From positions 1 to 62,845 of the IMG/VR virus record IMGVR_UViG_3300005528_000064: a DNA stretch of 62,845 nt; one strand, given 5' to 3'. This document shows positions 12,261 to 44,237 of the stretch, in pieces (the stretch's first letter is position 1; the number at the start of each line of letters is the position of its first letter). The notes beneath the pieces were generated by a model that was given only the letters and a program-made list of their open reading frames with translations, had not been told where the DNA came from and ran no database searches. The DNA comes from a virus. The position numbers and the translations under genes are program-made.

Positions 12261-15200
12261 ATGGCACTGGACTTCTCAAAATTTGGCACTCCGGTAGAGC
12301 AGACACCTGTTCTGGATTTTTCAAAGTTTGGGACTCCAGTCCAACCACCCGAAAAGCAAAGCGCCTTCCGTCAGATTGCAGACGTACCGCTCGGCATAGC
12401 CAAGGGCGCTGTTCAAGGCGTTCGCATGATTGCGGACGCTTTTGGCGCTGGGTCTGACACATCCAAGACCATTAAATCTGCTGAGACGTACCTTGCAGAT
12501 TTGATGTCTGCCCAAGCCAAGAACGACCAGCAAGAGATCTCACGCATCATGAAGGATGCGGAAGACAAGGGTGTTCTAGATCAGGTCAAGGCTGGTATCA
12601 AAGCCTTCACCATTGCTCCGGTTGATACGCTGAGCAGTGCTCTAGGAACTGCTGCGCCCGTCATTGCCGGTGCTCTGGGTGCAAAAATTTTGGGTGCTGG
12701 GGCGCTTGCAACCACTGGTGTTTCAGCACTGACCGGCGCGGGCATGGGTGCTGGAACTATCAAGGGTTCCATCTATGAGGAAACCAAGAACGCACTGAAG
12801 GAAGCTGGTGCTTCTGAGCAGGACGCTGAGGCGCGGGCAAAACTTGCGCAAGAGTACGGCGGCAAGAATCTTGACCAAATTTTGTTGGGCACTGTGCTGG
12901 GTGGCGCTGCTGCTGTTGGCCCGCTGGAAAAGGGCGGTGCGGCAATTTTGGCCCGCAGGATTCTTGGCAAGACTGATGTTACTGAAACCGTAGCAGGGCA
13001 AGCGGCCAAGGGTGCTGTTCGCCGCCGCCTAGAAGCCGGTGCGCTGGAAGCGGCTCCTGAATTTATCCAGGCAGGGCAAGAGCAAGTAGCGCAGAACATC
13101 GCTCTTCAGCGGGAAGGGTTTGATGTACCTACGTTCCGTGGGGCAGTGAGTTCTGCTACGTTGGAAGGTCTTGCTGGTGCTGGGCTTGGTGCTACGGTTG
13201 GTGGGGGTAAGCCTGCTGTTGCCCCCGAGGTGCCTCCGCCAGAAGCGCCGCCAGCCCCTCCTCCTGCTGCGCTGGAGTACAAGCCAGAGCCCTTTATCCA
13301 GTTCCCCGATGGGACGGTAGCCAAGCGCTCTGAAGTAGAGGCGTACATCAAAACGCTTCCTGAAGATCAGCAAATGGCGATGCGGGCCAAACTGCTCGGC
13401 CTTGCTCCTCAAGAAGCAGAAGCACCCCCTGCCGAACCTACCAAAGCGCTGGAGTTCAAGCCTGAACCTCTGATTGTTTACCCCGATGGTTCTGTTGCCC
13501 GCAGTAGCGAAGTAGACGCTTACATCCAAAGCCTGCCGGAAGATGAGCAGATTGCTGCCCGCGCAAAATTGTTGGGCATGGGTGAGGTGGCTACCCGCGT
13601 TACGCCTGAGATGCTGAGAAAACTTGGCATTCGTGGGCGGGCACCTGTCATCCAGCGGTTGTCTGGACTTGAGTTGACCGACCCCAAGGTTACGGAAGAA
13701 CTGACAAATTTTGCGTCACAACCTTACGCCTCTCCCGAAGTACGTGGAAACATCTTTGGTTTCCTGAACACCATCAAGCCCGTTGAAGCGCCGGTTGCCC
13801 CGCCTGTTGAGCCTGCCGCCGAGGCACCCGCTGCGCCCGTGGCAGAGGCAGCAGTTGAGCCTAGCGTTGCGGAAGATAGTGAACTCGTAACTCCTGCTCC
13901 GGTGGTAGAAGCCGCTGCGCCTGTGGAGCCGCCATCAAGAAATAGCGAGGCGTGGCGCACAGAAGGCAAAACGCCCGAACAACTGATGGCCGATAAGGTT
14001 GAGTCTGTCAGTTCAGAGCTTGCTGCACAAATTGCAGATGAGGCATCTGCTCAAGATTTTTCTCCGAACGAACTGCCAACAGCAATTCAGCAGTGGGCAT
14101 CTGACGCCAAGATTCCCGCAGATGATCTTCGTTTGAGTGTTATCAAAGCACTTGATAAGTTTGATATCAGCGATGCTCGTAAATCGCAAGTAAAGAAAGC
14201 GCTGAGCCCACTGCGTGCCGCCCCCGCAGCACCCACTGTAGAAGCCGCTGCGCCCAAAGCAGAAGCGCCTACGACAAAGCCAGCAAAAGCTGCCGCTCTC
14301 CGCAAGCAGCCCAATACTGTTATGGGCTCAACCATGTTGGCCGATGTCAGCAATCGGCTTGGTGGTCTTGATCTGTCTCTGTTGTCTGAGTTCTCCACAA
14401 AATTTATCACCAAGCGCAAGGATAAGTACGGTCGCCCATTGACCATGTGGCGCAACCCGATGGTTCCAGGCGTTGGCACTCTGTTCCGCAAGGGAGGCGA
14501 GAGTGACTACGTTCTGATTGCAACTATGCTAGAAGAGGCCGGATACCTTGAGCCGGGTTCTGTTGAGCGTGATTACAAAGAAGCTGGTGAACGCGCCAAG
14601 GACATGATCAAGGCGGCGCTTAACCGTGAAGAAGTTTTAACGCTTGAGCAGCAAGAAAGTCAAAGGCAAACCGACGAAGAAGCAAACCGTCAGGCTTGGC
14701 TTGAGCAACAAGAAGAACTGAAGGCTGAGCGTGACAACGCAGCGCGTGAAGCTGGCTTGACGCCCTATGAAGGTGACTTGCTTACGGATGAAGACATTGA
14801 TGTGTTTGCGCCTGCTAAGCCGCAGACAGATGAGCAATACGCAGCAGGAATGCGTGGGCTTGGATTTGACGAAACGGAGATAGCAGATGCAGTCCAAAAG
14901 AAGCAAGAGAGAGAACGTGCTCAGAAAACTGCTTCAGGCCGACCCGCAGAAGCGAGAGCGGTTCCTGAAACTGGAGAGGGCACTGAGGGGCTTGAGAGAT
15001 ACACCGCCGAAGAAGTAACTCGTAAACAAGAAGAAGCTGAGAAAGCCGCTGCCGAGGAAAAGAAAGCCAAGGCCGCTGAGCAAGAGCGTCTTCGCAAGGA
15101 GCAGCAAGCCAAGGAAGAGAAGGCTCGTGCAGATGAGTCTGTGAAAGACTTTGAGCTTGGCAAGAGCGCAGAAGAACAGATGACCGGCATGGGCGATCTG

Positions 15201-18200
15201 TTTGCTGAGTCGCCCAAACGAGAGCCACGCCAAGGCACACAGAAGCAACTGGAAACGGCAGACGGCCACGCCAAATCAACTGGTGGCACTGTTGTCTATC
15301 AAGATGGCGACATTGCGCTATTGCGTGGCTTCTCCATGCTGACAGGTCAACCTGTCTACGTGGTTACCAACGGTGACTATCGAGCCAAAATAGACATTGA
15401 GGGCTACACGGGCAATCTTGTAACGCCCGCACAAAAAGCGGATCTTGTCAAAGTCAAACAAGAACTTGAGGCAGAAGACAAGGTTAAGTTTGATAAGGCT
15501 CCTAGCATCAAATTTACCGGTGGCCTTGCCACTTCGGCAAACGTAAGCCCAGAGATAGCAGGCATCGTTCGCGGGTGGAAAGACTTGCTTGGCCTCAAGC
15601 CCAATCTGTACATCACGACGATTGATGATGCCGTTGCTGACCGCAACAAATTTACCGGGCCGCACCGTGCTATTGGTTCTGCTGGCCTTGATGCCAACGA
15701 AGCGGGTCAAGTAAGGCGTTTGCCTAACGGCGACTACTACATCGCTTTCAAGAAAAGCACCAGCAAAACCAAGATGCTGGAAGTGCTGGCCCATGAATTG
15801 GGGCACATGCACGAGCGTGAAGTATTCAACAGCGCAGATTCAGACACCAAGAAGAAGATCCGTGAGGAGCATGACAAGTGGCTCATGTCTCAGCAAGGCC
15901 GCTCTGCCCGTGAGTTGGTCCAATCTCTCCGCGCAAAAACTACCGGCAAGACTACCCGTGTTGAAAAGGGTATGCCTGCGGATCAGATGACGCCGTACTG
16001 GAAAAGTTTTGGCGAGTGGTATGCAGACCAAGTTTCTCGCTGGGCAGTTACCTCCGAGAAGCCTGTCAGTGTGGTGGAGAAGTTCTTCAGTCGGCTTGCT
16101 CAGGCGCTGAAGTCTTTCTATTCCAAGATCAAGAACGCTGGCTATCTGCCTAACGAGACATTTGTTCAGTACCTTGAGAAGACCCATCAGCCCTCTGGGC
16201 ACGTTATCTCAACCGATGACGGCACTGCGCAGCAAATGCTTGGTGAAGTTAAGGCCGCGCCATCCGGCAACCCCGGAGAGCAGGCTATCTCCATCGTGAA
16301 CTCTCTTGGCATGGGAGTGAAGCCACCTGAGCCTGGGCGGTTTGAGAAGGCCAAGAAAATCCTGAAGGACGCCGGAGACAACCCGTCTCTCACGAAGGAA
16401 TCAGCCAAGAAGACTCTGACCAAGTGGTTGGACTGGTTTGAGACCACGGTGTTCTCAAGCGACTCTGCGTTCAACAACAAAATTAGGCGTGGCATCATCA
16501 GTGACTTCAAGCAGAACCCTGAAGTTTTGGGGATGCTGCTTGAGGCTAGTCAATCTCAGACTGTTCACGCTGACGCGCTTGCCAGCCAGTTCATGATTGA
16601 CGGCGGGCTTCAGTACAACGACGATCTGAAGAAGTGGGAATCCGTCAAGAAGGACGACAATTTTGTCGCCTTGGCTAAGAAGATTGAAGACCTAGCCAAG
16701 AAGTACAACGTGACGAAGGATGAGATGGAGCGTATTGCTCACACGTACTTCGTTGCCAAGAGACTGCCGGGGATCATCAAGCGCAACGAAGAGTTGGACG
16801 CTGAGATCAAGGCAGAGCGTGCCACGGCCAAGCCTGATCGTAAGCAGATTGAAGAGTGGGAATCCCTGAAGGTTTTCGTCTCTGACGAGCAACTGGCGAT
16901 GATGGAGCCGGGGCTGTCTTTGGCGAAGACCATTCCTGAACTCAAGGAAGTGGTAGACATCTGGCAGGGCATCCGCAAGAACAACATTGATGTGATGGTG
17001 AACAGTGGCCTGTGGTCGCCTGAGTACGCAAACGCCATGTGGGACAACATGGACTATGTTCCGTACTACCGTGAGGAACAGCTTGAAGAAGGTGCAGGCC
17101 CGCAAGAATTTATCCGTGGTCTTCAGGTCAAGTCCAAGGAGTTCAAACTGAAGGGCTCCGGTGCGGCGGTGAATGATGTTTTTGACAACATGATCCGCTG
17201 GAGCCAGTACGCCATGAACCGTGCGATACGGGCGCACAAGGCAACGCAGATGATTGACGCGGCGCTGAAGATCGAGGTTGACGGTAAGCCGATGGCAACC
17301 AAAGTCACGGAACAAAAGCGCGGCATGAACATCGTGCGGGCGTTCCGGGATGGCAAGCAAGAGTTGTACGACATGGCTGACCCCCTGTTCGTGCCGGCGT
17401 TCTCGTCTATCCAGAACGTTTCCATTCCTACCTTGACGTTCATGGCTAAGCTGGCGAACGTACTGAGACAGTCGGTGGTTCTGTATCCTCTGTTCTCTGT
17501 TGCCCAGGTTCCTCAGGATTCCTTCGCGGCGATGTTCTCGTCTGGCCTGAAAACACAGCACGCCCTGAAGATTCCGTACCTTGCGGTGAAGGAGTTTGTG
17601 AAGACTCTTTCCAAGACAAGCCAGACTCACAATGAACTGAAGCGGTTTGGTGTTGTGGGGGTGAGAGATTTCTCCGCTACGGTGATCCGCGATGACGCTG
17701 AAATTTACGCTGGCTTGAAGCCTCCAAAGGGCGGATGGGGCAAGACCAAGGAGTTCTTGGAACACATTGCTATGTCTGCTGACAACGCCGTGCGGCAAGC
17801 GGTGTATGAGGCATCCATGCAGCAAGGACTGAAAAAGTCCGAGGCTCTTGAGAAGGCGTTTGAAATCATCAACTTCCGCCGTCGCGGAACCAGCAAGATG
17901 CTGAACGTGATGGGTCAAACCGTCCCGTTCTTCTATGCTTACCTCTCTGCTCAGCGAGTTGCTTATCGTGTTCTGTCTGGGGTGGGTATCTCTCCGTCAG
18001 ACAGGAAGGAAGCACTGACTACCCTTGCCACTACGTCTGCTGCCGTGGCGGCTTTGTCTGTGATCTACGCGATGGCGAACGGGGATGATGAGGACTACGC
18101 AGAAACCCCTGCTGCTATCCGTGACCGGACGTTGACCATTCCGGGTTCAGGTGGGGTGCGGATTCCTCTGCGGCCTGACTTCTTCTTGTTCCCCAAAATT

Positions 18201-19019
18201 GTTGCCGAGCACACTTACCTGATGCTCAGTGACAAAGGATATGAAGACGGAGCAAAATTTAGGAAGTCAATGGCAGATGCGCTTCTCAGCGCTGTTGCAA
18301 GCCCGACACCGTTCCCCACGGCTATAAAGCCCGCCATCGAAGTAGCCATCAACTACGACTTCTTCCAGGGTAAACCCTTGATCGGAACCTTTGAGAAGCA
18401 GAAGGACGTAGAGCGGCAATTCCGTGATTCAACTTCGGAGTTGGCGAAGATACTTTCCAATGTGCCGTTGTCCTACAGCTTAGAAAAAGGCAAGTTTGAA
18501 GGGATGTCACCGATTGCCATAGATCACATGATCCGTGGCATGCTGGGTTCGTTCGGTGGCTTGGTTCTGTTTGGGACCAATCAGTTCTTGCACTCTGACC
18601 CTGACGTTCCAAGGCCGGAGATGTCAGCGAACGAGATGCTTGCTGCGCTGCCGGGTACGTCCGGTTTGCTCAAGCGCCCGCAAGAATCTGCCCTGAAGAA
18701 CGACTTCTTCGTACTCCGCGATGCAGTAGAGAAAGCGGCTAACACCTTCAACGACATCAAGACTCGTAGCCCCGAAGGGATTGAAGCGTTCTTGGAAGAC
18801 GAGAAGAACGCCATCCGTCTAGGCATGGCTAAGGGCGTTGACAAAATTAACAGGCACTTGTCAGACATCCGTAGAAGGATGACCATCATCACGAACATGC
18901 CTGAGAGCCAGATGCCTGCTGATGAAAAGGCGCAGAACATCCGAGAACTGAGGGAACTGGAGCGTGAAATTTTGCGCTCAGTGAACGTCAAGGAACTGCG
19001 GGAGATGGCGAAGATTTAG
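12261..19019 (+). CDS. Giant virion protein with zincin motif and LPD38-like C-terminal region
   Basis: 2252 residues, the largest gene. The N-terminus has two copies of LDFSKFGTPV. Hydrophobic Ala/Gly helices follow (about 125-175). Two 59-residue-spaced copies of a KPEP...YPDG...AYI-LPED-Q...RAKLLG unit start near residues 337 and 396. A Pro/Ala linker and a highly charged coiled coil (about 790-1000) come next. A zinc-peptidase motif HELGH is at 1178-1182, with GEWYADQ at 1251-1257 as a possible third-ligand region. The last ~600 residues, including FFYAYLSAQRVAYRVL, resemble the large polyvalent-protein-associated domain LPD38. Such proteins are thought to be injected with the DNA. It converges on, and overlaps by 32 bases, the minus-strand gene at 18988. 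Confidence 0.8.
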   Translation: MALDFSKFGTPVEQTPVLDFSKFGTPVQPPEKQSAFRQIADVPLGIAKGAVQGVRMIADAFGAGSDTSKTIKSAETYLADLMSAQAKNDQQEISRIMKDAEDKGVLDQVKAGIKAFTIAPVDTLSSALGTAAPVIAGALGAKILGAGALATTGVSALTGAGMGAGTIKGSIYEETKNALKEAGASEQDAEARAKLAQEYGGKNLDQILLGTVLGGAAAVGPLEKGGAAILARRILGKTDVTETVAGQAAKGAVRRRLEAGALEAAPEFIQAGQEQVAQNIALQREGFDVPTFRGAVSSATLEGLAGAGLGATVGGGKPAVAPEVPPPEAPPAPPPAALEYKPEPFIQFPDGTVAKRSEVEAYIKTLPEDQQMAMRAKLLGLAPQEAEAPPAEPTKALEFKPEPLIVYPDGSVARSSEVDAYIQSLPEDEQIAARAKLLGMGEVATRVTPEMLRKLGIRGRAPVIQRLSGLELTDPKVTEELTNFASQPYASPEVRGNIFGFLNTIKPVEAPVAPPVEPAAEAPAAPVAEAAVEPSVAEDSELVTPAPVVEAAAPVEPPSRNSEAWRTEGKTPEQLMADKVESVSSELAAQIADEASAQDFSPNELPTAIQQWASDAKIPADDLRLSVIKALDKFDISDARKSQVKKALSPLRAAPAAPTVEAAAPKAEAPTTKPAKAAALRKQPNTVMGSTMLADVSNRLGGLDLSLLSEFSTKFITKRKDKYGRPLTMWRNPMVPGVGTLFRKGGESDYVLIATMLEEAGYLEPGSVERDYKEAGERAKDMIKAALNREEVLTLEQQESQRQTDEEANRQAWLEQQEELKAERDNAAREAGLTPYEGDLLTDEDIDVFAPAKPQTDEQYAAGMRGLGFDETEIADAVQKKQERERAQKTASGRPAEARAVPETGEGTEGLERYTAEEVTRKQEEAEKAAAEEKKAKAAEQERLRKEQQAKEEKARADESVKDFELGKSAEEQMTGMGDLFAESPKREPRQGTQKQLETADGHAKSTGGTVVYQDGDIALLRGFSMLTGQPVYVVTNGDYRAKIDIEGYTGNLVTPAQKADLVKVKQELEAEDKVKFDKAPSIKFTGGLATSANVSPEIAGIVRGWKDLLGLKPNLYITTIDDAVADRNKFTGPHRAIGSAGLDANEAGQVRRLPNGDYYIAFKKSTSKTKMLEVLAHELGHMHEREVFNSADSDTKKKIREEHDKWLMSQQGRSARELVQSLRAKTTGKTTRVEKGMPADQMTPYWKSFGEWYADQVSRWAVTSEKPVSVVEKFFSRLAQALKSFYSKIKNAGYLPNETFVQYLEKTHQPSGHVISTDDGTAQQMLGEVKAAPSGNPGEQAISIVNSLGMGVKPPEPGRFEKAKKILKDAGDNPSLTKESAKKTLTKWLDWFETTVFSSDSAFNNKIRRGIISDFKQNPEVLGMLLEASQSQTVHADALASQFMIDGGLQYNDDLKKWESVKKDDNFVALAKKIEDLAKKYNVTKDEMERIAHTYFVAKRLPGIIKRNEELDAEIKAERATAKPDRKQIEEWESLKVFVSDEQLAMMEPGLSLAKTIPELKEVVDIWQGIRKNNIDVMVNSGLWSPEYANAMWDNMDYVPYYREEQLEEGAGPQEFIRGLQVKSKEFKLKGSGAAVNDVFDNMIRWSQYAMNRAIRAHKATQMIDAALKIEVDGKPMATKVTEQKRGMNIVRAFRDGKQELYDMADPLFVPAFSSIQNVSIPTLTFMAKLANVLRQSVVLYPLFSVAQVPQDSFAAMFSSGLKTQHALKIPYLAVKEFVKTLSKTSQTHNELKRFGVVGVRDFSATVIRDDAEIYAGLKPPKGGWGKTKEFLEHIAMSADNAVRQAVYEASMQQGLKKSEALEKAFEIINFRRRGTSKMLNVMGQTVPFFYAYLSAQRVAYRVLSGVGISPSDRKEALTTLATTSAAVAALSVIYAMANGDDEDYAETPAAIRDRTLTIPGSGGVRIPLRPDFFLFPKIVAEHTYLMLSDKGYEDGAKFRKSMADALLSAVASPTPFPTAIKPAIEVAINYDFFQGKPLIGTFEKQKDVERQFRDSTSELAKILSNVPLSYSLEKGKFEGMSPIAIDHMIRGMLGSFGGLVLFGTNQFLHSDPDVPRPEMSANEMLAALPGTSGLLKRPQESALKNDFFVLRDAVEKAANTFNDIKTRSPEGIEAFLEDEKNAIRLGMAKGVDKINRHLSDIRRRMTIITNMPESQMPADEKAQNIRELRELEREILRSVNVKELREMAKI

Positions 19020-19449
19020 CACGCTTACGGGCCTGCTTCATGTCTTCGTCAACAGCGGCCTTATGTTCTACCGCCTTTCCCTTCCACACATGGTAGATGC
19101 TGATCGCTAATTTTTGGCGACGGCCATCCTCGTTGGTCTTGACCACAAGCCCAGCGTCAACAAGTTTGTTCAGATACCTGCTGAAGTTTGCGGAGTCCAT
19201 ACCGATCTGGTCTGCCATCTCGCGCTGACTGGCTTCAATCTTGTTGTGCCAATCGCAGTTCATGAGAAGCGCCATCCACACGCGCAAAGTGTTGCCGTCA
19301 AATTTACGGGCCAACAAAACTTGCCATGCTTCATTACTGACTGCAAGCCACATTTGGAAACCTACCTTGTGTTGCCTTGGCGTGTAGACCGGGACACCTT
19401 CAACAATCTCTCCAGTGTCAAGGTCAATGGTTGCAAAGTTCCTGCGCAT
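18988..19449 (-). CDS. RepL/MarR-like winged-helix protein under SOS-type boxes
   Basis: 153 residues. The centre (about 35-110) is a winged helix: FDGNTLRVWMALLM, ASQREMADQIGMDSANFSRYLNKLVDAGLVV and a basic wing. It resembles plasmid RepL initiators and MarR-type regulators; which of the two cannot be told by eye. A basic Lys/Ser/Pro tail follows. It is the last gene of the leftward block and converges on the giant virion gene. Its ATG is 8 bases downstream (in transcription direction) of two LexA-like boxes with an overlapping promoter, so it probably has its own damage-inducible transcript. Confidence 0.72.
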   Translation of the reverse strand: MRRNFATIDLDTGEIVEGVPVYTPRQHKVGFQMWLAVSNEAWQVLLARKFDGNTLRVWMALLMNCDWHNKIEASQREMADQIGMDSANFSRYLNKLVDAGLVVKTNEDGRRQKLAISIYHVWKGKAVEHKAAVDEDMKQARKRAKSSPSPAVP

Positions 19450-22659: not shown

Positions 22660-22946
22660 TTCAGTTCTCCAGAAACAAAAGGTACTTCTTGGACCAATTC
22701 ATAGGTAGCCTGAAAGATGTCGGGCTTGCATGGGTAGAACTCGCCCGCCACACCTTTGATGATCCAGTCACCTTCGGTTGCTTTGTGATTCCCCTCAAGC
22801 GTTTCAATAGTCAAGTACCTTTCAACGTCCCAACACCAGTCGCCTGCTTTTCCGCCCTCACCATCAATCCAATGGATGAGGGGGAAAAGAGAGTCCTTGG
22901 TAAGTTGACAAGCCTCAATCACGACGGGCTTCTTGCGATACTTCAT
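22656..22946 (-). CDS. Small phage protein (MKYRKKPVVIEA family)
   Basis: 96 residues from the ATG at 22946, which overlaps the upstream stop. MKYRKKPVVIEACQ at the start and DWIIKGVAGEFYPCKPDIFQATYE near the end are the hallmarks of a widespread phage family of unknown function, thought to be a small beta protein. Position in the recombination operon is the only functional hint. Confidence 0.75.
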   Translation of the reverse strand: MKYRKKPVVIEACQLTKDSLFPLIHWIDGEGGKAGDWCWDVERYLTIETLEGNHKATEGDWIIKGVAGEFYPCKPDIFQATYELVQEVPFVSGELK

Positions 22947-23692
22947 TGGAAAGAATCCTTCTTGGTTTTGAAAGCGGACATCAGACCCTTGTGGCACTCG
23001 GGATCAATGTCCTTGACCTTATCAAACAAAGCCCGGTTGACCTGAAAGACCTGCATGACGTCAGCCTGAGACGTAGCCTGCTCCAGCGCAACAACAGCGG
23101 CCTCGGAAACAATGTTGATGAAGTCAGTATTCGTAGCGTCAGGCTTGGTCGTGACGGTGATCTGGAACCGTCCGGGTTCGCCTGCCATCTTGGCCGGGGG
23201 CTTCGATGGGAGAGCGGGCGGCTTCTCTGCCTTCGGCTTCGGAGGAGGCACCACGCCATCGTCTTCTGGCAAATCTTCCCCAGCGTAGATGTACAGACCA
23301 AGCCCGTGCATAGCCAGACACTTGGTAAGACACCGCATGATGGCTGTATTGACATTGAACGAGTCAAGCTCCTCAATTTTTTCGTTGCCGTACTTGTCCT
23401 TGTACTTCCGGCCTGCGATTTTGATCGGCTCATTCTTGGAGTTCATGACCGGCAGGAAACATGTCATCTCCTTACCGAACAGAGTGGTACGAACCCACAC
23501 CATCGCGGTTCCGTTGATGTCCATGTACGGGATGGTTGTCCCGTCCGCACGCTGGAACGTATCAACATGGAACGTGGCCGTAGGATCAGCCTTCAGGGCT
23601 TCTGCCCAGGCCCACGCCCAGCTAAGGTACGTGAGCCCGTTCTTCTTCTCAACGTGATCCTGTACGTTGAGTTTGAGGAGGTTTGCGATCAT
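22943..23692 (-). CDS. Single-strand annealing protein, DUF1071 (Sak3-like)
   Basis: 249 residues. NGLTYLSWAWAWAEALK, TAMVWVRTTLFGKEMTCFLPVMN and FNVNTAIMRCLTKCLAMHGLGLYIYAGEDLP form the DUF1071 core, assigned to the Rad52-like annealing proteins of phages. It would pair complementary single strands during phage recombination, together with the exonuclease at 23912. A Pro/Lys linker (about 150-175) joins a C-terminal helical domain. It is coupled by ATGA overlaps on both sides. Confidence 0.85.
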   Translation of the reverse strand: MIANLLKLNVQDHVEKKNGLTYLSWAWAWAEALKADPTATFHVDTFQRADGTTIPYMDINGTAMVWVRTTLFGKEMTCFLPVMNSKNEPIKIAGRKYKDKYGNEKIEELDSFNVNTAIMRCLTKCLAMHGLGLYIYAGEDLPEDDGVVPPPKPKAEKPPALPSKPPAKMAGEPGRFQITVTTKPDATNTDFINIVSEAAVVALEQATSQADVMQVFQVNRALFDKVKDIDPECHKGLMSAFKTKKDSFQ

Positions 23693-23931
23693 GCTGCTTG
23701 CTCAACAATTTTGACGACAGGCTTCTTCCCCGGCTTGCGCCCAGGCTTCTTGGCGGGACGGCCTGCCTTGGTGAGACGCACTGTGCCAGCGCTTGTGGCT
23801 TCCAGCATCTTATTGAGTGCAGTCACAGTCGTCACCGGCTTGGCTTCCAGCTTCGCCAGAATTTTGGCGGCAGATTCCTGCACGGCATGGGCAACGAACT
23901 TCACTTCAGATTCAGTCAGGTTGATCAACAC
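23689..23931 (-). CDS. Small basic protein with AT-hook-like tail
   Basis: 80 residues. The N-terminal half is helical. The C-terminal third is Lys/Arg/Pro-rich with two GR(P/K)-type hooks (AGRPAKKPGRKPGKKP), which usually bind the minor groove of AT-rich DNA. It lies between the annealing protein and the nuclease, so a DNA-compaction or recombination accessory role is likely but unproven. Confidence 0.6.
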   Translation of the reverse strand: MLINLTESEVKFVAHAVQESAAKILAKLEAKPVTTVTALNKMLEATSAGTVRLTKAGRPAKKPGRKPGKKPVVKIVEQAA

Positions 23932-24820
23932 TTTGGTTCTCCTTCAGGTAAGTTTGAAATTGGGAACAGAACTTGGACACTTGGCAGTAGGACTTGCACC
24001 GGGTTCTCTCGCCGGGGCGGATTTCGATCACAAATTTTTCGTTCTTCTTGGCAGACTTCTCAGCCTCCGCAAGCGCAGCGTTAGCTTCCTCTTCGCTTGA
24101 GTGAACTGACTTCGCTCTTACACCTCCTTCTTTCTTGATGGCCCAAGTCGTGGATTTCTCCCACATCTCTTCCGGTGAGCACTCAGGCAGTGAGCCCTCG
24201 GTGTCTGCCTCAAACATGGCCGAGGAGTGAGCGGTCAGGCGGGACTGAATGAACGCTTCCCTTTCCTCTGGCGACCACAATTTAATGGGGATGGTGACGA
24301 TGGGAGCTTGGGGATAACCCTCCTTCTGCGCTTCACGGGCCGACCAATCACGGATGATAGCCACGATGGACAGCTTGGTAACGGGGGCTTCCTTGACCTT
24401 CTCCACTAGATGAGCGTAGACGTTCAACTGGTGCGTCCAGTCGGCTTTCTCGTTCATCACCGCCCAGGCACTTGTCGTTTTGTAGTCGCTGATCTCAATC
24501 CCATCGGGCGTGACGGTCTGAAGATCAATGGCACCAGACAGAACCCAGCCCGAGAACTCTGCGAACAGACGCTCCTCGATGATGTGGTTGTCTCCCTTGC
24601 CATGCTCCAAAATATGGTGGATGGCCGAGCCGAACAGTTGCCACACCATCTCACTGGCGTCTTGCTCAATGTCTTCCCAATGCTTGCGCTTAAGCTGAAC
24701 AATCCGAGGACTGTTCAGCAACTCGGTACATGAGATGTGCGCATCGCCCTTGCTGTACGTTGGCCTGTGAAGTGCATTCAGTACCGAGTCGGGCAGGTGG
24801 TGCAAATTAGTTATGCGCAT
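23912..24820 (-). CDS. PD-(D/E)XK exonuclease, RecB/Cas4-like
   Basis: 302 residues from the ATG at 24820, which has CAAGGAG seven bases upstream. The nuclease core is visible as GAIDLQT (Asp99) and EISDYKTT (Asp112, Lys114), the D...(D/E)xK motif. Cys31 together with Cys275, Cys279 and Cys285 gives the one-plus-three Cys arrangement of the Fe-S clusters of AddB and Cas4 nucleases, with CxxxC rather than CxxC. With the DUF1071 protein it makes a phage recombination pair. The upstream GIY-YIG gene overlaps its first codons. Confidence 0.82.
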   Translation of the reverse strand: MRITNLHHLPDSVLNALHRPTYSKGDAHISCTELLNSPRIVQLKRKHWEDIEQDASEMVWQLFGSAIHHILEHGKGDNHIIEERLFAEFSGWVLSGAIDLQTVTPDGIEISDYKTTSAWAVMNEKADWTHQLNVYAHLVEKVKEAPVTKLSIVAIIRDWSAREAQKEGYPQAPIVTIPIKLWSPEEREAFIQSRLTAHSSAMFEADTEGSLPECSPEEMWEKSTTWAIKKEGGVRAKSVHSSEEEANAALAEAEKSAKKNEKFVIEIRPGERTRCKSYCQVSKFCSQFQTYLKENQSVDQPD

Positions 24821-25478
24821 TTTTTCTCCTTGTTTCCCAACCAATCTTTCTTGCTTCGGATCTTTTTTTCTTAGCTTCTTCAGACATAGCTTGTTCTGAA
24901 AGCCAGTAGTTGCGAATGGCCGCTTGTTTTTTTTCTTCGTATACACGCCCATTGTTAACGAGGGGGCTTTTTTCTCTTTGCATCTTTTTGCGCTCTTCAG
25001 ATGAGTAAGCCGCTTTCAATATCAGTGAGTGTTTTATCTTTTCCTCTTCTGTCCATCTTTTTTGTTGCGCAATAGAAGACTTTGTTCTTGACTCAGTACT
25101 CCACTGGTTTTGGCGGATTAACTTCATTCGTTGGATATTCTCTTCTTTTGACCAAAACTCTTTTGTGCGACGAGACATCAACTCCTTTGATTCGTTGGTG
25201 TGTCTGTAGCCAGACGGCCCATCTCCGCCAGCAGTTAAGTTAACAAGACGAAAACCTAGGTCGTTAAAGCACAGAATAAGAAACTTTTCATGTTCAAAGG
25301 CTTCATTCTCTGTTTTCCACTGGGCACAAATCTCAACTTCAAACCCGTGTTTTTTTGCAGTCTTATGCCACCAATCACTTCTATCAAAAGGCTTCCATGC
25401 TCGGTTGCCAGACCCTTTGCCCACATAAAAAATCCTACCGTCATCGGCTGTGCGATGTATGTACGTGTAAAACTTCAT
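24807..25478 (-). CDS. GIY-YIG nuclease, homing-endonuclease type
   Basis: 223 residues. The N-terminal domain has YTYIH, IFYVGKG and a later conserved Glu (FEHEKFLI), the GIY-YIG catalytic core that nicks DNA. The rest is a Lys/Glu-rich helical DNA-binding region with NUMOD3-like segments (S-ETK-K, RWTEEEK). The gene is visibly richer in A and T than its neighbours, a sign of separate origin. It is fully integrated into the operon: its start overlaps one stop and its end overlaps the next start. Confidence 0.85.
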   Translation of the reverse strand: MKFYTYIHRTADDGRIFYVGKGSGNRAWKPFDRSDWWHKTAKKHGFEVEICAQWKTENEAFEHEKFLILCFNDLGFRLVNLTAGGDGPSGYRHTNESKELMSRRTKEFWSKEENIQRMKLIRQNQWSTESRTKSSIAQQKRWTEEEKIKHSLILKAAYSSEERKKMQREKSPLVNNGRVYEEKKQAAIRNYWLSEQAMSEEAKKKRSEARKIGWETRRKNAHN

Positions 25479-31958: not shown

Positions 31959-33422
31959 TTGAAACTAGAACTGAGAGAGAAGCAAGTCCTCGCCATTGAG
32001 CTACTGCGAGAAGGATTTGCACAAGGCCACCGCGCTCAAATACTTGCCGCGCCTGTCGGTTTTGGGAAGACTGAAGTAGCCATTGCCTTGCTTGAGGCGG
32101 CAAAAAAAAAGGGCACAAGATCATCAATGATCCTTGACCGCATAGTTCTGTGCGATCAAACGTCCCAGCGACTTGATAAATACGGCATAGATCATGGCGT
32201 ACTCCAGTCAGGACATTGGCGCTACAGGCCCAGCGAATACATACAGGTGTGCTCCGCGCAAACCTTGGAAGCAAGGGGATCTGTACCAGATACCAAGCTG
32301 CTTATCATAGATGAATGCCATTGTTCCCGCAAAGCCACCAACGAACTCATCAAGAATAACCCGCATATTAAAGTTGTTGGGTTATCTGCAACACCGCTAA
32401 CTAAGGGGCTTGGACAGATTTATTCCAAGGTGATTAACCCAGTCACAACGAAAGAACTTGTAGAGAAAAAGCTACTTACCCCGCTAAAAGTATTTATCTC
32501 CAAGGAGATTGATATGAAAGGGGCGAAGAAAGTTGCGGGGGAATGGTCAGATGCAGAGGCTTCTTCAAGAGCGATGAAAATCGTTGGCGATGTAGTTGCC
32601 GAATGGGTAAAGAAGACTCACGAAATATACGGCAAGCCTGTCAAAACAATCGTATTCTGTGCTGGCGTTGAGCACGGTGCAGAGTTAGCCAGTAGGTTCC
32701 GTGAGCAAGGATATAACTTCGTAAGTATTTCTTACAGAGATGACGATCAGTTTAAAAAGGACGTCATTGAAGACTTCTCAAAACCTGATACAGAGATACA
32801 CGGTATCTGTGCCGTAGACATACTTACCAAGGGTTTCTCGGTTGACGATGTGCATATCGGAATATCTGCCAGACCATTCTCAAAGTCTTTGTCATCACAT
32901 ATTCAGCAAATGGGCAGAGTTATGCGGACGCATAGCACAAAACAATTTGCAACGTGGCTTGACTTTTCGGGAAACTATTTAAGGTTCAGAGAAGACTGGG
33001 AGAAGATATACGACAGCGGTATTGATGAGCTTGATGATGGCGCTGAAAAAGCCAAGCAGGAACCCGACGAGAAGGAGAAGAAAGAATCCAAGTGCCCCGC
33101 CTGCGGTGCCCTGTGGCCGCGTGGTTCTGATACTTGTACGAACTGCGGGCATGTGCGGGAGCGCAAATCTGCGGTGGTATCTGTCCCCGGCCAGATGGAA
33201 GAACTGGGTTCCATGTCACGCGATGACAAACAAGCGTGGTGGAGCATGGCGCAGTACAAAGTACAGACTGGATCGTGGACAGACAAACGTGCTCTTGCGA
33301 ATTACCGCGAGAAGTTTGGTGTGTGGCCAAAAGGTTTGAATGACACACCGCTACCACCTACGCGGGCGTTTGAGAGCTTTGCAATCAAGAGCATCAGGAA
33401 GTACCTGAAGGGCAAGCGATGA
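31959..33422 (+). CDS. Superfamily 2 DEAD/H-box helicase with zinc ribbon
   Basis: 487 residues, starting at TTG with GGAG seven bases upstream. Visible motifs: Walker A APVGFGKT (31-38), DECH (118-121), GLSATP (141-146) and QMGRVMRTH near residue 325. A zinc ribbon follows (Cys379/382 and 393/396), then a Trp-rich C-terminus. It resembles phage RecQ/UvsW-type replication and recombination helicases. It overlaps the TOPRIM primase gene by 4 bases, so the two are probably made together. The gene is somewhat AT-rich compared with its upstream neighbours. Confidence 0.88.
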   Translation: MKLELREKQVLAIELLREGFAQGHRAQILAAPVGFGKTEVAIALLEAAKKKGTRSSMILDRIVLCDQTSQRLDKYGIDHGVLQSGHWRYRPSEYIQVCSAQTLEARGSVPDTKLLIIDECHCSRKATNELIKNNPHIKVVGLSATPLTKGLGQIYSKVINPVTTKELVEKKLLTPLKVFISKEIDMKGAKKVAGEWSDAEASSRAMKIVGDVVAEWVKKTHEIYGKPVKTIVFCAGVEHGAELASRFREQGYNFVSISYRDDDQFKKDVIEDFSKPDTEIHGICAVDILTKGFSVDDVHIGISARPFSKSLSSHIQQMGRVMRTHSTKQFATWLDFSGNYLRFREDWEKIYDSGIDELDDGAEKAKQEPDEKEKKESKCPACGALWPRGSDTCTNCGHVRERKSAVVSVPGQMEELGSMSRDDKQAWWSMAQYKVQTGSWTDKRALANYREKFGVWPKGLNDTPLPPTRAFESFAIKSIRKYLKGKR

Positions 33423-34255
33423 ACTTCCTAGACTTTTGCCGAGCGCACGGTATCCTGATCGAGCACTTGCCTCCCGTCGGTCTGTGGAGGCGGTATCCCA
33501 CGGAGGACAAACCGCGCCACAAAAACGGAGCAGTCAAGTGGATGCTTGACCACGGCTTCTGTCAAAACCACGCCACTGAGGTAACTGTTTCCGTCTGGCG
33601 ACCTGATGAGCCCGTAAAAATTAACAGGCGTGACCTAGCCGAGCAGGCCCGCAGAGCAGAGCAGGATACTCTGCGAAGGCAAGCAGAAGCGGCCAAGAAA
33701 GCCGCTTGGATACTTCACCAATGTCAGTACGCATCGCATCCATACCTCAAGGCCAAGGGTTTCCCTGACGAAGTTGGAAATGTTTGGGTACGTGAGGGTG
33801 AGCATCTGCTGGTGATCCCCATGAGAATTGGAAACCGGCTGGTGGGCGTTCAACTGATCGACTCCGAGGGCAAGAAGAATTTCCTGTCGGGTCAGGTCAC
33901 GGGCGGCGCGGAGTATGTGATAGATAACCGAGGAGTGAACATACTGGCAGAGGGGTACGCGACCGCGCTCTCCGTAAGGAAAATTATGAAGAGCCTGAAG
34001 ATGCGTTACAAAATAAGAGTGACGTTCTCAGCAGGTAATCTACTGAAAGTTGCCAGAACTCTAGACTCTGCATTGGTGATCGCAGACAACGATGTCAGTG
34101 GTGTGGGGCAAAAGACCGCTATTGAGACGGGCTTCCCATACTGGATCAGTGATACCGTTGGAGAAGACTTCAATGACTACCATCTAAGGGTAGGTATATT
34201 CAAAGCCACTCAGGCCATATACAAAGTGCTTCAACAACACAAGCTAACAAGTTAG
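33419..34255 (+). CDS. TOPRIM-domain DNA primase
   Basis: 278 residues. A short N-terminal domain (GLWRRYPTEDKPRHKNGAV) and a helical linker precede a TOPRIM core: ILAEGYATALS (Glu178), VTFSAGNLLKVA, and LVIADNDVSG (Asp223, Asp225). The ending SDTVGEDFNDYH is typical of phage primases of this type. It would make RNA primers for replication, with the helicase just upstream. No polymerase gene follows. Confidence 0.85.
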   Translation: MNFLDFCRAHGILIEHLPPVGLWRRYPTEDKPRHKNGAVKWMLDHGFCQNHATEVTVSVWRPDEPVKINRRDLAEQARRAEQDTLRRQAEAAKKAAWILHQCQYASHPYLKAKGFPDEVGNVWVREGEHLLVIPMRIGNRLVGVQLIDSEGKKNFLSGQVTGGAEYVIDNRGVNILAEGYATALSVRKIMKSLKMRYKIRVTFSAGNLLKVARTLDSALVIADNDVSGVGQKTAIETGFPYWISDTVGEDFNDYHLRVGIFKATQAIYKVLQQHKLTS

Positions 34256-34342: not shown

Positions 34343-35080
34343 ATGAAAACTTGTACTAAGTGTAAACAAGAGAAACCGTTTAGTGAGTTTCATAAAGATA
34401 AAACATCAAAAACAGGGTTCAGATCACGATGCAAAGTTTGTTGCGCGGAAGATAGTTCAAATAGATACTATGAAAATCCACAAAAACACATAGCAATAGC
34501 GCGCAAATGGCAAGATAAAAATAAAGAAAAAGTAGTGGCAACCAGAAAAGCACGCTACAAAAACAACAAAGAAAAGTTAAAAGAAGTTAGTCGTAAATAC
34601 AGAGAACAAAACCCAGATAAAACATGGGAACACAATAAAAAGTATTACGAACAGAATAAGGAGAGAGAAAAACTTAGAGCAAAAATATATAGGCAACAAA
34701 ATCCTGACAAAGTTAAAGAAATACAAAGATCCTATATTTTAAGAAACAAAGAAAAAGTTAAACAAGCAAGACTAAAGTACAAAAAAGAAAATCCTGAAAT
34801 ATTTAAAAGAATAAATCAGAACAGAAGAGCAAGAAAACTAGCATCAAATGGCAAGTTATCTTCTGGGCTGGCGCAAAAGTTATATACGCTGCAAAACGGC
34901 AAATGCGCTTGTTGTAAGAAGCCTCTAGGTGACAACTACCATATGGATCACATCATGCCATTAGCACTGGGTGGATCAAACACAGATGACAACATTCAAC
35001 TTCTTAGGGCGCAGTGCAATAACCAAAAATACAGCAAGCACCCTGTAGATTTCATGCAGGAAAGAGGCTACCTGCTTTAG
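34343..35080 (+). CDS. HNH endonuclease, AT-rich insertion
   Basis: 245 residues. An N-terminal zinc finger (CTKCKQEKPFSEF, C-VCC) is followed by a long Lys/Asn/Glu-rich helical region with repeated YREQNPDK and KYKKENPE units. The C-terminal HNH has CACCKKPL, HMDHIMPLALGGSN and CNNQK. Base composition is far more AT-rich than the flanks, which marks recent transfer of a free-standing homing endonuclease. The 87 bases before it hold a direct repeat GGTTCATCATGA (twice), the second containing its ATG. Confidence 0.85.
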   Translation: MKTCTKCKQEKPFSEFHKDKTSKTGFRSRCKVCCAEDSSNRYYENPQKHIAIARKWQDKNKEKVVATRKARYKNNKEKLKEVSRKYREQNPDKTWEHNKKYYEQNKEREKLRAKIYRQQNPDKVKEIQRSYILRNKEKVKQARLKYKKENPEIFKRINQNRRARKLASNGKLSSGLAQKLYTLQNGKCACCKKPLGDNYHMDHIMPLALGGSNTDDNIQLLRAQCNNQKYSKHPVDFMQERGYLL

Positions 35081-35504: not shown

Positions 35505-35584
35505 CTGTGAATTTTTACAGTGTGTCTACTACTCCAAAATGGTGGAAGTAGGAAACCGTTCGGCAATACTGTAAATTTTTACAG
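35505..35584 (-). promoter_or_regulatory. Two strong LexA-like boxes
   Basis: CTGTGAATTTTTACAG at 35505-35520 (inside the 22-base palindrome ACACTGT-N8-ACAGTGT) and CTGTAAATTTTTACAG at 35569-35584 (8-base arms around TT). Both fit CTGT-N8-ACAG exactly. The second covers the stop codon of the HNH gene at 35579. On the minus strand a weak -10 TAAAAA lies inside the first box. They are best placed to control the secreted Cys-rich gene at 35277. Confidence 0.68.
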
Positions 35585-36157
35585 TGGTCGCCAATCCGTT
35601 TGGTCCCAGTTCCCTTTGCCGTGGTTGCACTCATGGCATAGAACTTGAAGGTTATCAACGTCCAAGGCCAGATGGGGGAACAATTTTCGGGGCTTGATAT
35701 GGTCAACGTGGATGACTGCGCCTGTTGCGGGAGTAGCGCCGCAGCATTGGCAGCGGGCACCGTACTTCTTCAGGGCCACCATGCGCGTCTTGCGCCATTC
35801 ATATGTGGATAGAAACTCAGTAGTCGTGACATCAATACCGGCAACCGTTTGTGGTGCCAGCTTGGTGCTCAATGCCTTGGATTTCCTTGGCATCAACCCC
35901 TTGGCGCGGCGCTCCGCAAGTTTTGCTCGGTGCTTCTGCCGTTTTGTCAGTTTTTTCTGAACTGGCTCCACTACAGCGGGCGCTTTCTTTTCAACGACAG
36001 GAGGAACTTTCGCCGCAATCTTCGCCTTGCGTTCTTCCTTCTTCTTGATGTCTTTTGCAATACGAGCGTTGGCTCTAATCTTTGATAGGAAAGCCCGCCT
36101 TCTTTCTGGCGTGGCTTTCTGCCATTCTTCAGACTTGAACAGGTCTTCTTCTTCCAT
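35579..36157 (-). CDS. HNH nuclease with basic N-terminal region
   Basis: 192 residues. The first ~110 residues are charged and Lys/Ala/Pro-rich (coiled coil and linker). The HNH domain has RCQCCGA, HVDHIKPRKLFPHLALDVDNLQVLCHEC-HGKGN, complete with two CxxC pairs and the catalytic His. Its ATG is 3 bases after the RepL-like stop, so they share an operon. Phage HNH proteins next to replication or packaging genes can be nicking enzymes; here it might nick near the iterons, but that is conjecture. Confidence 0.82.
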   Translation of the reverse strand: MEEEDLFKSEEWQKATPERRRAFLSKIRANARIAKDIKKKEERKAKIAAKVPPVVEKKAPAVVEPVQKKLTKRQKHRAKLAERRAKGLMPRKSKALSTKLAPQTVAGIDVTTTEFLSTYEWRKTRMVALKKYGARCQCCGATPATGAVIHVDHIKPRKLFPHLALDVDNLQVLCHECNHGKGNWDQTDWRPL

Positions 36158-36159
36158 CG

Positions 36160-36684
36160 TTACTCAGCCGAGACAGAAATGCTCCGGCCTTCCTCTGAGT
36201 ATTCAATCTGCATCTTGATCTTCCGCAGATCGTTGAACTTGCGGCGGTTCTCCAGCACTCTCGGGTCAGTACCTACCGCAAAGATATGAGGGTCAATCAT
36301 GTAGACGCCATTGACCACGCGCATGAGCAGGCCGCTTCCGATGAGTTCCCGCGTGGCGTTGTAGATCACTTGGTTCTTCAGGCCGGTGCGCTCCGTGATT
36401 TCCTTACGCTCTACCGGGGTGATGATGACATGGTTCTGATCGTCTCTGACCATCGAACCAAGTTCAATGAACAGAACCATCGCAGACCGAGACAGACCGT
36501 AGAGTCGGCATAGGTCAGCGTAGAACATTTTGGTGAACGTCAGATGCGTAGCACCTTCCTTGCGCGTCACCTCTTTGACAACCTCGGTTGCCCGCAAAAT
36601 TTCGCCCGTCTCGGCGTCAGTTGTCAGCGTCCGCTCCAGGCTACTGTAGACCGCACGGGCTTGCTTGCTCATCACATCACGCAT
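36160..36684 (-). CDS. RepL-like winged-helix replication initiator
   Basis: 174 residues from the ATG at 36684, which has AGGAGG five bases upstream. FTKMFYADLCRLYGLSRSAMVLFIELGSM, ERKEITERTGLKNQVIYNATRELIGSGLLMRVVNGVYMIDPHIFAVG follow the RepL/IncFII-type winged helix, including the conserved NxY-F-G-like end. Five 19-base iterons lie ~90-180 bases upstream, and an extra half site overlaps its -35. It probably starts phage replication at the iterons and represses itself. It is distinct in sequence from the winged-helix protein at 18988. Confidence 0.75.
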   Translation of the reverse strand: MRDVMSKQARAVYSSLERTLTTDAETGEILRATEVVKEVTRKEGATHLTFTKMFYADLCRLYGLSRSAMVLFIELGSMVRDDQNHVIITPVERKEITERTGLKNQVIYNATRELIGSGLLMRVVNGVYMIDPHIFAVGTDPRVLENRRKFNDLRKIKMQIEYSEEGRSISVSAE

Positions 36685-36702
36685 AACTACCTCCTGATCT
36701 GG

Positions 36703-36732
36703 ATGATAGCATCTAACGGAAAACAAGTAAAG
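36703..36732 (-). promoter_or_regulatory. Promoter of the RepL-like gene with iteron half site in the -35
   Basis: Minus strand: -35 TTTACT (36732-36727), 18 bases, -10 TATCAT (36708-36703), then AGGAGG and the ATG at 36684. The -35 region TTTACTTG is the conserved half of the iterons at 36771, which suggests autorepression. Confidence 0.5.
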
Positions 36733-36770
36733 ACCTACTGAAGTCATCTACTCAAAAATGTATACGTTTA

Positions 36771-36868
36771 CTTGCTACGAGTAAACTTACTTGTCACGAG
36801 TAAACTTACTTGCTACGAGTAAAGTTCCTTGTAGTGAGTAAATTTGTTACTCGCTATGAGTAAACGCA
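36771..36868. repeat. Five 19-bp iterons, candidate replication origin
   Basis: Units start at 36771, 36790, 36809, 36828 and 36850; the first four are strictly tandem, the fifth follows after 3 bases. Consensus acttgctacgagtaaactt. Units 1-3 differ by one to three bases, units 4-5 by more. Within each, TTACT...AGTAA forms an inverted repeat; around unit 1 it reaches GTTTACT-N7-AGTAAAC. The region is AT-rich and stands before the RepL-like gene. Confidence 0.75.
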
Positions 36869-37084
36869 CTACTCCCCACATGAGTGACCCCTAGCATTCA
36901 TGCGGGTTCCAGGCCGATTGCTCTTTTCTTCTCTTTGCGTAGCGTAGTGGTGTGCGTAGCTTCTTGGCCAGGGGAATGAGTGATGGGTCAGTCCTCCGCT
37001 ATGGCAGCGCAGCGTCTACCCGTGCGCTCCACCTCTCTGTCGTATCGTGCCCGCTCGGTTTTCGAGAGCAGCGTAGCAGGGGCG
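36869..37084. other. Non-coding stretch between iterons and terminator
   Basis: About 215 bases with no convincing gene on either strand. It contains a pyrimidine-rich run (CTCTTTTCTTCTCTTTGCG near 36922) and CGTAGCGTAGTGGTGTGCGTAG, a short imperfect repeat. It could be part of an origin (duplex-unwinding or primase-loading side), but nothing specific is seen. Confidence 0.4.
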
Positions 37085-37108
37085 TAAAAAAGCCCGCCGA
37101 AGCGGGCT
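37085..37108 (-). terminator. Strong rho-independent terminator
   Basis: On the minus strand AGCCCGC-TTCG-GCGGGCT followed by five T: a 7-pair GC stem with a stable UUCG loop. It ends the leftward operon just after the gene at 37112 and isolates it from the iteron region. Confidence 0.9.
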
Positions 37109-37111
37109 GGG

Positions 37112-37471
37112 TCACTTTTTCGCTAGTTCCCTGCCGTGTCTGTGCAGTTCATCTTTTATGTAGGCCAATCCTTTCCTGCCCATGTTGGGGATACGGAGGA
37201 CTCTGTTCTCTGTCATGGAGCACAGTTGGTCAATCGTCCTTACGTCCTCAAAACGCAGGCAGTTCAGAACTCTGCAGGGCAAGTCCAGATCGTCAACCAT
37301 AACGTCAATTTCGGCTTGCGTTTCTTCCTTGGCCTTGAGAAATGCGACTTCTCTCTCGTATTCCTGCAGCATTTTGTAGGCAAGCTGGACGCGGAGGTGG
37401 ACCCCTCCCGTGCTCGCTGGCGCTTGGCCGTGCATCATGGTGAACAGTTGCCAGAGTCGTTCTTCGTTCAT
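37112..37471 (-). CDS. RNA polymerase alpha C-terminal-domain-like protein
   Basis: 119 residues from the ATG at 37471, two bases after the upstream stop. The N-terminal half is helical. Residues about 58-117 (VDDLDLPCRVLNCLRFEDVRT, IDQLCSMTENRVLRIPNMGRKGLAYIKDELHRHGREL) follow the bacterial RpoA C-terminal domain (VDDLELTVRSANCLKAE..., LLKTPNLGKKSL-EIKD-L) in order and spacing. That domain binds UP-element DNA and activators. A free copy could redirect or compete with host transcription. It is the last gene before a strong terminator. Confidence 0.75.
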   Translation of the reverse strand: MNEERLWQLFTMMHGQAPASTGGVHLRVQLAYKMLQEYEREVAFLKAKEETQAEIDVMVDDLDLPCRVLNCLRFEDVRTIDQLCSMTENRVLRIPNMGRKGLAYIKDELHRHGRELAKK

Positions 37472-37472
37472 G

Positions 37473-37724
37473 TCATACCCCAATTTTGTTGAGGAAGTTC
37501 CGCGCCTTGGTCAGCCGTGCGCGGTCCATGCCGACGTCACCATGCTCAAGGATATGAAACGCCAGGGAGTCCACGACAGAGCGCAGATGCTGCTCCAGTT
37601 CATCGCGCTCGGCTCGCAGTTCTTTGAAAGCGATGTTGTCGCGGGCGCGGGCCTGCTCCAGTTCGATCACGCGGTCGATTCCGTTGCGGGCGATATCAAT
37701 TACGCCCTGAACACCAGTTTCCAT
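37473..37724 (-). CDS. Hypothetical coiled-coil protein
   Basis: 83 residues from the ATG at 37724, with CAGGAG six bases upstream. It is helical and charged (DRVIELEQARARDNIAFKELRAERDELEQHLRSV is the kind of heptad pattern seen). The region just upstream (37742-37758) is a truncated copy of the terminator stem at 37085. Function unknown. Confidence 0.6.
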   Translation of the reverse strand: METGVQGVIDIARNGIDRVIELEQARARDNIAFKELRAERDELEQHLRSVVDSLAFHILEHGDVGMDRARLTKARNFLNKIGV

Positions 37725-43552: not shown

Positions 43553-43933
43553 ATGAACAAGTGGCTTGACAGAAGAATTTCAGCGCCGGGGCCGTATCTC
43601 ACTTTGTGTTTAAGTGAGAAGGAGTATGAGGGTGCTATGAAGGCGCTGAAGGTCAAGCACTACGGTCCGTGGATCTCTACGCCGCAGGCATCTGCGACGA
43701 CGCACAACTTGAGTAATGAGGATGGGAACCTGTGTGCGGTGGTGTGCTTAAGTGACTATGCTGGCCGAAATCCCGTCGAAGTAGCAGGGCTTCTGGTCCA
43801 TGAAGCAGTGCATGTGTGGCAGGAGTACTGTGACTTCTACGGCGAGAAGTTTCCTGGCCGTGAGCAAGAGGCGTATGCAGTGCAGTCGCTGGCGCAAGAA
43901 CTGATGGCAGAGTTTGCGCGGCGAAATGGATAA
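43553..43933 (+). CDS. Zincin-like metallopeptidase-fold protein
   Basis: 126 residues. VEVAGLLVHEAVHVWQEY has the HExxH zinc motif (HEAVH, near residue 83), followed by GEKFPGREQEAYAVQSLAQELM with a Glu in the right place for a third ligand. Small proteins of this type are common before phage terminase genes, with unknown substrate. Its leader repeats the GCTAAGTTGTTGATTT element seen before the Lar-like gene. Confidence 0.72.
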   Translation: MNKWLDRRISAPGPYLTLCLSEKEYEGAMKALKVKHYGPWISTPQASATTHNLSNEDGNLCAVVCLSDYAGRNPVEVAGLLVHEAVHVWQEYCDFYGEKFPGREQEAYAVQSLAQELMAEFARRNG

Positions 43934-44006
43934 GAAGTGGCGCACGAAGAAGGTATTGCAGAGTCCTCTGAGGAAGGTGTATGGGTCCAAGGAGGAGGTA
44001 TTGGAG

Positions 44007-44237
44007 ATGGGGATGACTGAGGCTCAGAAGGAAGTGTTTTTGGCTATAGATGTGTGGTGGTGCCGGTTTGGGTACGGCCCGAGTCTGCGGAACATTTGTG
44101 AGTTGAGGGGTAAGCCTGGGCTTGGGAGCACGAAGAAGATCGTGGATAGGTTGGTGAAGCTGGGTGCTCTCAAGAGGGTTGAGGGGATGGGAAGGTCTGT
44201 GCGGCCGACGTACATCAGCTTTAGGAATATGGAATGA
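44007..44237 (+). CDS. Stand-alone LexA-type winged-helix DNA-binding protein
   Basis: 76 residues from the ATG at 44007, chosen because GGAGGAGG lies eight bases upstream; an ATG at 43926 would add 27 residues and overlap the previous gene. MTEAQKEVFLAIDVWWCRFGYGPSLRNICE, GSTKKIVDRLVKLGALKRVEG-GRSVRP matches the LexA N-terminal domain in order (TARQQEVFDLIRDHI...G-PPT-AEIA, SP-AAEEHLKALARKG, SRGIR). The S24 protease half and the Ala-Gly cleavage site are absent. Its stop overlaps the TerL ATG. It may bind the LexA-like boxes of this genome, or serve as a small-terminase-like DNA binder. Confidence 0.78.
   Translation: MGMTEAQKEVFLAIDVWWCRFGYGPSLRNICELRGKPGLGSTKKIVDRLVKLGALKRVEGMGRSVRPTYISFRNME

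Follow-up and report, generated by a model that had tools for sequence, protein, structure and literature searches.

A tandem dyad array upstream of a RepL-like gene as the probable replication origin of a phage

The viral DNA analysed here, a stretch of 62,845 bases that we call the window, carries on its minus strand a repL-like gene that is preceded by a promoter-like site and a tandem array of short palindromes, and followed almost immediately by a nuclease gene. The locus comprises the following features.

35579-36157, minus strand: HNH nuclease gene abutting repL (PF01844, E 9.8e-9)
36160-36684, minus strand: repL-like initiator gene, 174 amino acids, with a predicted winged-helix core (PF05732)
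36690-36695, minus strand: ribosome binding site AGGAGG, recognised from the sequence
36703-36708, minus strand: -10 hexamer TATCAT, from the promoter scan
36726-36731, minus strand: -35 hexamer TTTACT in the half site TTTACTTG, a putative operator half site; TTTACT is kept in the related contig L006
36700-36874: A+T-rich stretch and possible unwinding region (A+T 0.62-0.68, against 0.46 for the window)
36767-36864, minus strand: five tandem dyads, putative RepL sites and origin core, from pattern and repeat scans
36768-36784: dyad 1, exact TTACT-N7-AGTAA
36787-36803: dyad 2, exact TTACT-N7-AGTAA
36806-36822: dyad 3, exact TTACT-N7-AGTAA
36825-36841: dyad 4, with a single mismatch, in one arm
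36847-36863: dyad 5, exact, 22 bp from dyad 4
36880-36929: conserved block past the array, with a minus-strand polypurine tract; 82% identical to L006

A preliminary description of this DNA had assigned the gene to the RepL type, and family membership is borne out by a match to the PF05732 profile well above its cut-off (31.1 bits against 20.3; E 2e-7). Of the possible starts, the ATG at 36684 is the better one, being preceded by AGGAGG and kept in L006; the longest open reading frame starts at 36747. A tblastn search with the protein at E <= 0.01 returns 38 plasmid records and 3 phage records, the top matches being RepL genes on plasmids from Klebsiella, Aeromonas and Arsenophonus, whose products are about 33% identical to it (best E 6e-14).

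The same description had read the upstream DNA as five direct 19-base repeats. Five copies are present, but the 19-bp register is held by four of them, the fifth lying 22 bp on (dyad centres are spaced 19, 19, 19 and 22 bp), and each unit is more aptly described as a palindrome with a 7-bp centre, TTACT-N7-AGTAA. The minus strand of one copy reads AGGAA in place of AGTAA. The 19-mer quoted earlier has a single exact copy, and in the 19-bp register the similarity between array copies is 84-87%. If up to one mismatch is allowed, TTACT-N7-AGTAA occurs at 5 sites in the 62845 bases, all inside the array; shuffled sequences average 0.76 such sites, and none of 100 reaches five. The 19-mer form, at up to three mismatches, is likewise confined to the array, with 4 places in the window's record. 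A permutation test for dyad symmetry at the level of the single unit is weak, with p = 0.10 for the window and p < 0.05 in 9 of 40 RepL loci.

The resemblance to an iteron plasmid, which had also been proposed, is partial. Tandem repeats beside an initiator gene and an A+T-rich neighbourhood agree with it; the palindromic units and the lack of a DnaA or IHF box do not. The best 165-bp A+T value at the array and promoter ranks among the highest 0.65% of the window, and near 34.3 kb there are stretches just as rich in A+T. DnaA and IHF boxes with up to one mismatch are absent from 36600-37600, including the block at 36880-36929, and an exact DnaA box is absent from the whole window, which also yields no Rfam or tRNA match. 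Classical iterons are repeated in direct orientation, lack dyad symmetry and are bound by Rep as a monomer. Unlike these, the palindromic units seem suited to a dimeric winged-helix protein.

Conservation in close relatives follows the boundaries of these features. An initial near-identity search yielded no phage match, while viral contigs include two relatives, L005 (99%) and L006 (RepL 84% identical), and searching viral contigs for the dyad-array pattern retrieved nothing beyond these two. The window, L005 and L006 each have five dyads with a spacing of 22, 19, 19 and 19 towards the gene. Identity between the window and L006 amounts to 86% in the array, 90% in the promoter (36703-36731) and 82% in the block at 36880-36929, and stands at 46% in the outer intergenic DNA (37000-37111). 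Within the dyads, 49 of 50 arm positions match L006, compared with 26 of 35 positions in the centres (Fisher p 0.0012). Such stronger conservation of arms than of centres looks like the pattern of binding sites with variable spacers.

How general is this arrangement? We surveyed 40 RepL-like loci, picked for diversity among genes that resemble a RepL protein or match the RepL profile of Pfam; repeats were no criterion of the selection, which was not random. Repeats of period 16-26 were sought in 400 bp, with 300 Markov shuffles for each locus and significance at p < 0.01, and the proteins were grouped at 60% identity (27 clusters for the 40 loci). Tandem arrays stand upstream of repL in 33 of the 40 loci, or 20 of the 27 clusters, and downstream of the same genes in 0 of 37, three stretches being too short. 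The commonest period is 22 (19 loci), followed by 21 (7 loci) and 19 (3 loci, all from the clade of the window), the rest being 16 (2 loci), 23 and 25; the two positives with a 16-bp period are doubtful among the 33, their DNA being A+T-rich. Seven loci have no significant upstream array (L012, L020, L029, L031b, L040, L042 and L063), although in L029 dyads are visible by eye, yet p = 0.07.

The sequence of the unit varies by clade: TTACT..AGTAA in the window, TCACT..AGTGA in the Aeromonas and Arsenophonus plasmids, TTCCTCCAGTGGAGGAA in a Priestia plasmid and TCCTC..GAGGA in phage LS-2018a. One candidate for a universal RepL half site, TAC-N9-GTA, was seen 43 times across 15 of 28 loci, compared with 0-17 times for spacers of 7, 8, 10 and 11, and was rejected on account of its absence from most later loci, where L061 has 4 copies, L062 (a near copy of L016) has 3 and the other RepL loci tested have none. 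Given this scarcity we regard it as a clade-level motif. The plasmids L010, L022, L024 and L035 (2.3-2.8 kb) have repL and a mobilisation gene as their only recognised functions, the relaxase of L024 being assigned from a plasmid typing line and the list of open reading frames. Rfam RNAs such as RNAI have no matches in 9 RepL plasmid loci.

The conserved module of RepL gene and array is thus real, and it is of a type known from plasmids; what is new here are the 19-bp dyads and the phage setting. The regularity of the layout across RepL loci is more interesting than the single phage case. A family-wide dyad array is undescribed in the literature that we searched on RepL with iterons, repeats or phage, a search in which subscription journals are thinly covered. 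A Campylobacter RepL plasmid of 1.3 kb is described without tandem iterons and is suspected of rolling-circle replication (PMC11389370).

The array might alternatively be a multi-operator control region, with the RepL-like protein acting only as a phage transcription regulator of the MarR fold and replication beginning elsewhere. The predicted structure lends itself to such a role. The AlphaFold model has a mean pLDDT of 63.6 with a well-predicted winged-helix core at about residues 50-130, and its likeness to other winged-helix proteins includes the MarR, Fur and Crp regulators. For this low-pLDDT model the best Foldseek E is 0.022 and VIA gives Z scores that reach 8.9 against a variety of winged-helix proteins, among which no solved plasmid or phage initiator is prominent. 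Moreover, the array adjoins a promoter-like site, and SEN1990 provides a precedent for a RepL-annotated regulator; a RepL-annotated Salmonella protein is reportedly dispensable for the replication of its island (PMC10655114). The closest annotated relatives, however, are the RepL proteins of small plasmids, which have no other recognised initiator and have the upstream array too, whereas control genes with weaker matches to the Pfam RepL profile have arrays upstream in 0 of 16 cases (downstream in 2 of 15). We consider a purely regulatory role unlikely.

A regulatory function in addition to initiation is another matter. The promoter-like site, TTTACT-17-TATCAT, extends from 36731 to 36703 on the minus strand, with TG preceding the -10. 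The promoter scan of 2.2 kb finds 1 such site and shuffled sequences contain 1.2, so that the site alone is not above chance. The -35 does carry the array half site, as had been noticed before (TTTACT within TTTACTTG), a coincidence of little weight when taken alone: beyond the array, TTTACT(C/T)G occurs just at 36731 and 14194, and since about 2.7 occurrences are expected in the window, we treat the half site as suggestive. The survey adds a more general signal. Array 7-mers recur between the array and the start codon in 18 of 19 loci, where 7.0 are expected and the maximum of 300 shuffles is 12; 20 loci were entered, one being dropped for its short leader, and some of the recurrences are extra array copies. 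For the leader of the window alone, p = 0.15. In the leaders of L024, L032, L033, L061, L007, L008 and L010 an isolated dyad whose spacer is wider stands about 30-90 bp before the repL start. These lone dyads, whose arms are like the array arms in several loci, are likely operators, and it is plausible that RepL of the phage represses the repL promoter by way of the -35 half site.

Several known replicons offer points of comparison. On the Aeromonas (NZ_LT635658) and Arsenophonus (NZ_CP123756) plasmids, a RepL about 33% identical to ours is preceded by dyads in tandem, some 140 bp ahead of its start codon; these are three copies of TCACT-N5-AGTGA at a 22-bp period, whereas the phage has five copies of TTACT-N7-AGTAA, mostly at 19 bp. 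The closest precedent, which lowers the novelty of our observation, is Paracoccus plasmid pMOS6, described as having a RepL-type rep with an upstream oriV and two 18-bp iteron-like repeats 3 bp apart (PMC3832669), that is, a 21-bp period. A minimal replicon is reported there, with the authors' data not shown (PMC3832669). pMOS6 resembles the phage in its RepL-type rep with iteron-like repeats upstream, and differs in having two copies and an IHF-like box and in being a plasmid. Among phages, Pseudoalteromonas phage HS5 and Sodalis phage phiSG1 have RepL-like genes with upstream tandem arrays of periods 21 and 22, which differ from the window in dyad sequence and period; for these stretches the annotation tables of both phages list no array.

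In phage lambda, the initiator O binds tandem dyadic repeats beside A+T-rich DNA. Unlike in the window, these repeats are located within the initiator gene, O does not belong to RepL, and the phage itself supplies the helicase loader P. RepL of phage P1 shares with ours its name and a role in lytic replication. It has no PF05732 match and pairs with the RepL of the window at 26% over 73 amino acids (pairwise E 2e-4), the scan upstream of P1 repL gives p 0.96, and a period-19 repeat signal appears in the first half of the gene. A published account places P1 oriL inside P1 repL (PMC9948254). With no Pfam match, a short 26% alignment and no upstream array, P1 RepL was set aside as a model.

Taking the locus and its comparisons together, we find it quite probable that the segment 36703-36930 and repL constitute a RepL-dependent origin of replication for the phage, be it the only one or one of several, with probable autoregulation. 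The RepL-linked origin already suggested for this array gains comparative support from the 33 of 40 upstream arrays and a published precedent in pMOS6. The gene order also speaks for it: in L006, which retains the ParB-like gene too, repL again adjoins a nuclease gene in the vicinity of primase- and helicase-like genes, and phage HS5 has the order repL-nuclease-toprim. An initiator of the plasmid type, leaning on its host, is also in keeping with the gene content, as a profile search of the window finds no match to DNA_pol_A, DNA_pol_B or DnaB_C. GC skew, suggested earlier as a check for an origin at 36.8 kb, is uninformative: across the window it tracks gene direction, and GC3 skew in plus-strand genes (0.077 at about 1-19 kb, 0.019 at 31-35 kb and 0.070 at 44-62 kb) shows no switch.

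What could be the mechanism of initiation at such an origin? From the arrangement of the sites we infer that a RepL dimer would bind each dyad and fill the tandem array, and that the filled array would strain the adjoining A+T-rich DNA. The complex of RepL and array may then recruit the host replicative helicase or replication machinery, a step proposed because searches of the window for DNA polymerase A or B and for a DnaB helicase domain came back empty, while RepL would damp its own promoter through the -35 half site. A period of 21 bp amounts to whole helical turns and one of 19 bp does not, so that neighbouring dimers in this clade would be rotated relative to each other. Theta replication, also put forward in the preliminary description, is one possible mode for the phage.

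RepL replicons are common on small plasmids. A review groups them with the rolling-circle replicons and describes the pSN2 class as less studied (PMC5703833). If that held for the phage, RepL or a partner would nick a double-strand origin and the repeats would merely position the nicking protein, a scheme for which the filing of the staphylococcal RepL (pSN2) class in that review speaks (PMC5703833). None of the 40 RepL proteins has an HUH motif, however, tandem phased arrays are an origin-binding layout, and the RepL plasmid pBAS2 is described without observed single-stranded DNA or an obvious nick site (PMC5779722). Rolling-circle replication strikes us as improbable here.

Nicking could also be provided by the adjoining HNH nuclease, which would take part in initiation near the RepL-marked array. 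The HNH gene abuts repL by 2 bp, L006 retains an HNH-like reading frame after repL (5028-5696), and phage HS5 has a GIY-YIG nuclease in this place. Yet no recognised nuclease gene adjoins repL in plasmids such as L022 and L024, HNH and GIY-YIG genes commonly occur as homing elements, and the window has a second HNH at 34343-35080. We deem participation of the nuclease very improbable indeed.

Returning to initiation by RepL at its array, a broader proposition seems to us an even bet: the RepL family would consist of dimeric winged-helix initiators that load onto tandem dyads lying upstream of repL at intervals of about two helical turns and open the DNA without nicking it, and the rolling-circle label would be wrong for much of the family. 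Phages would have adopted such modules repeatedly, the present clade having moved to a tighter 19-bp array of rotated sites. A dyad array conserved in plasmids as well as phages marks where RepL is likely to bind and predicts targets for footprinting and deletion. If the origin reading is true, the module represents a compact origin for a phage and hints at the exchange of replication modules between plasmids and phages.

The lifestyle of the phage, described earlier as lytic-looking, is less clear-cut. The window has no matches to tyrosine or serine recombinases, which agrees with that description; it also encodes a ParB-like protein and a LexA-type domain, so that a plasmid-like temperate phase is conceivable. 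The LexA-type DNA-binding domain (43914-44237, plus strand; E 3.8e-4, below the cut-off) adjoins the terminase gene. A second winged-helix protein is encoded at 18988-19449 on the minus strand (MarR_2 E 6.7e-7; RepL E 0.007, below the cut-off).

Helicase-like and primase-like genes lie at 31959-34255. A 2252-residue protein (12261-19019, plus strand) matches only the phage families phrog_18222 and phrog_9854, which have no known function. The window further contains a recombination pair at 22943-23692 and 23912-24952, both on the minus strand, consisting of a Sak-type single-strand annealing protein (E 2.8e-40) and a PD-(D/E)XK nuclease. Just upstream of the array, at 37112-37483 on the minus strand, lies the gene for a 123-residue protein with an RNA polymerase alpha C-terminal domain (PF03118 E 3.9e-16; rpoA model 4.3e-15), possibly a factor for hijacking transcription.
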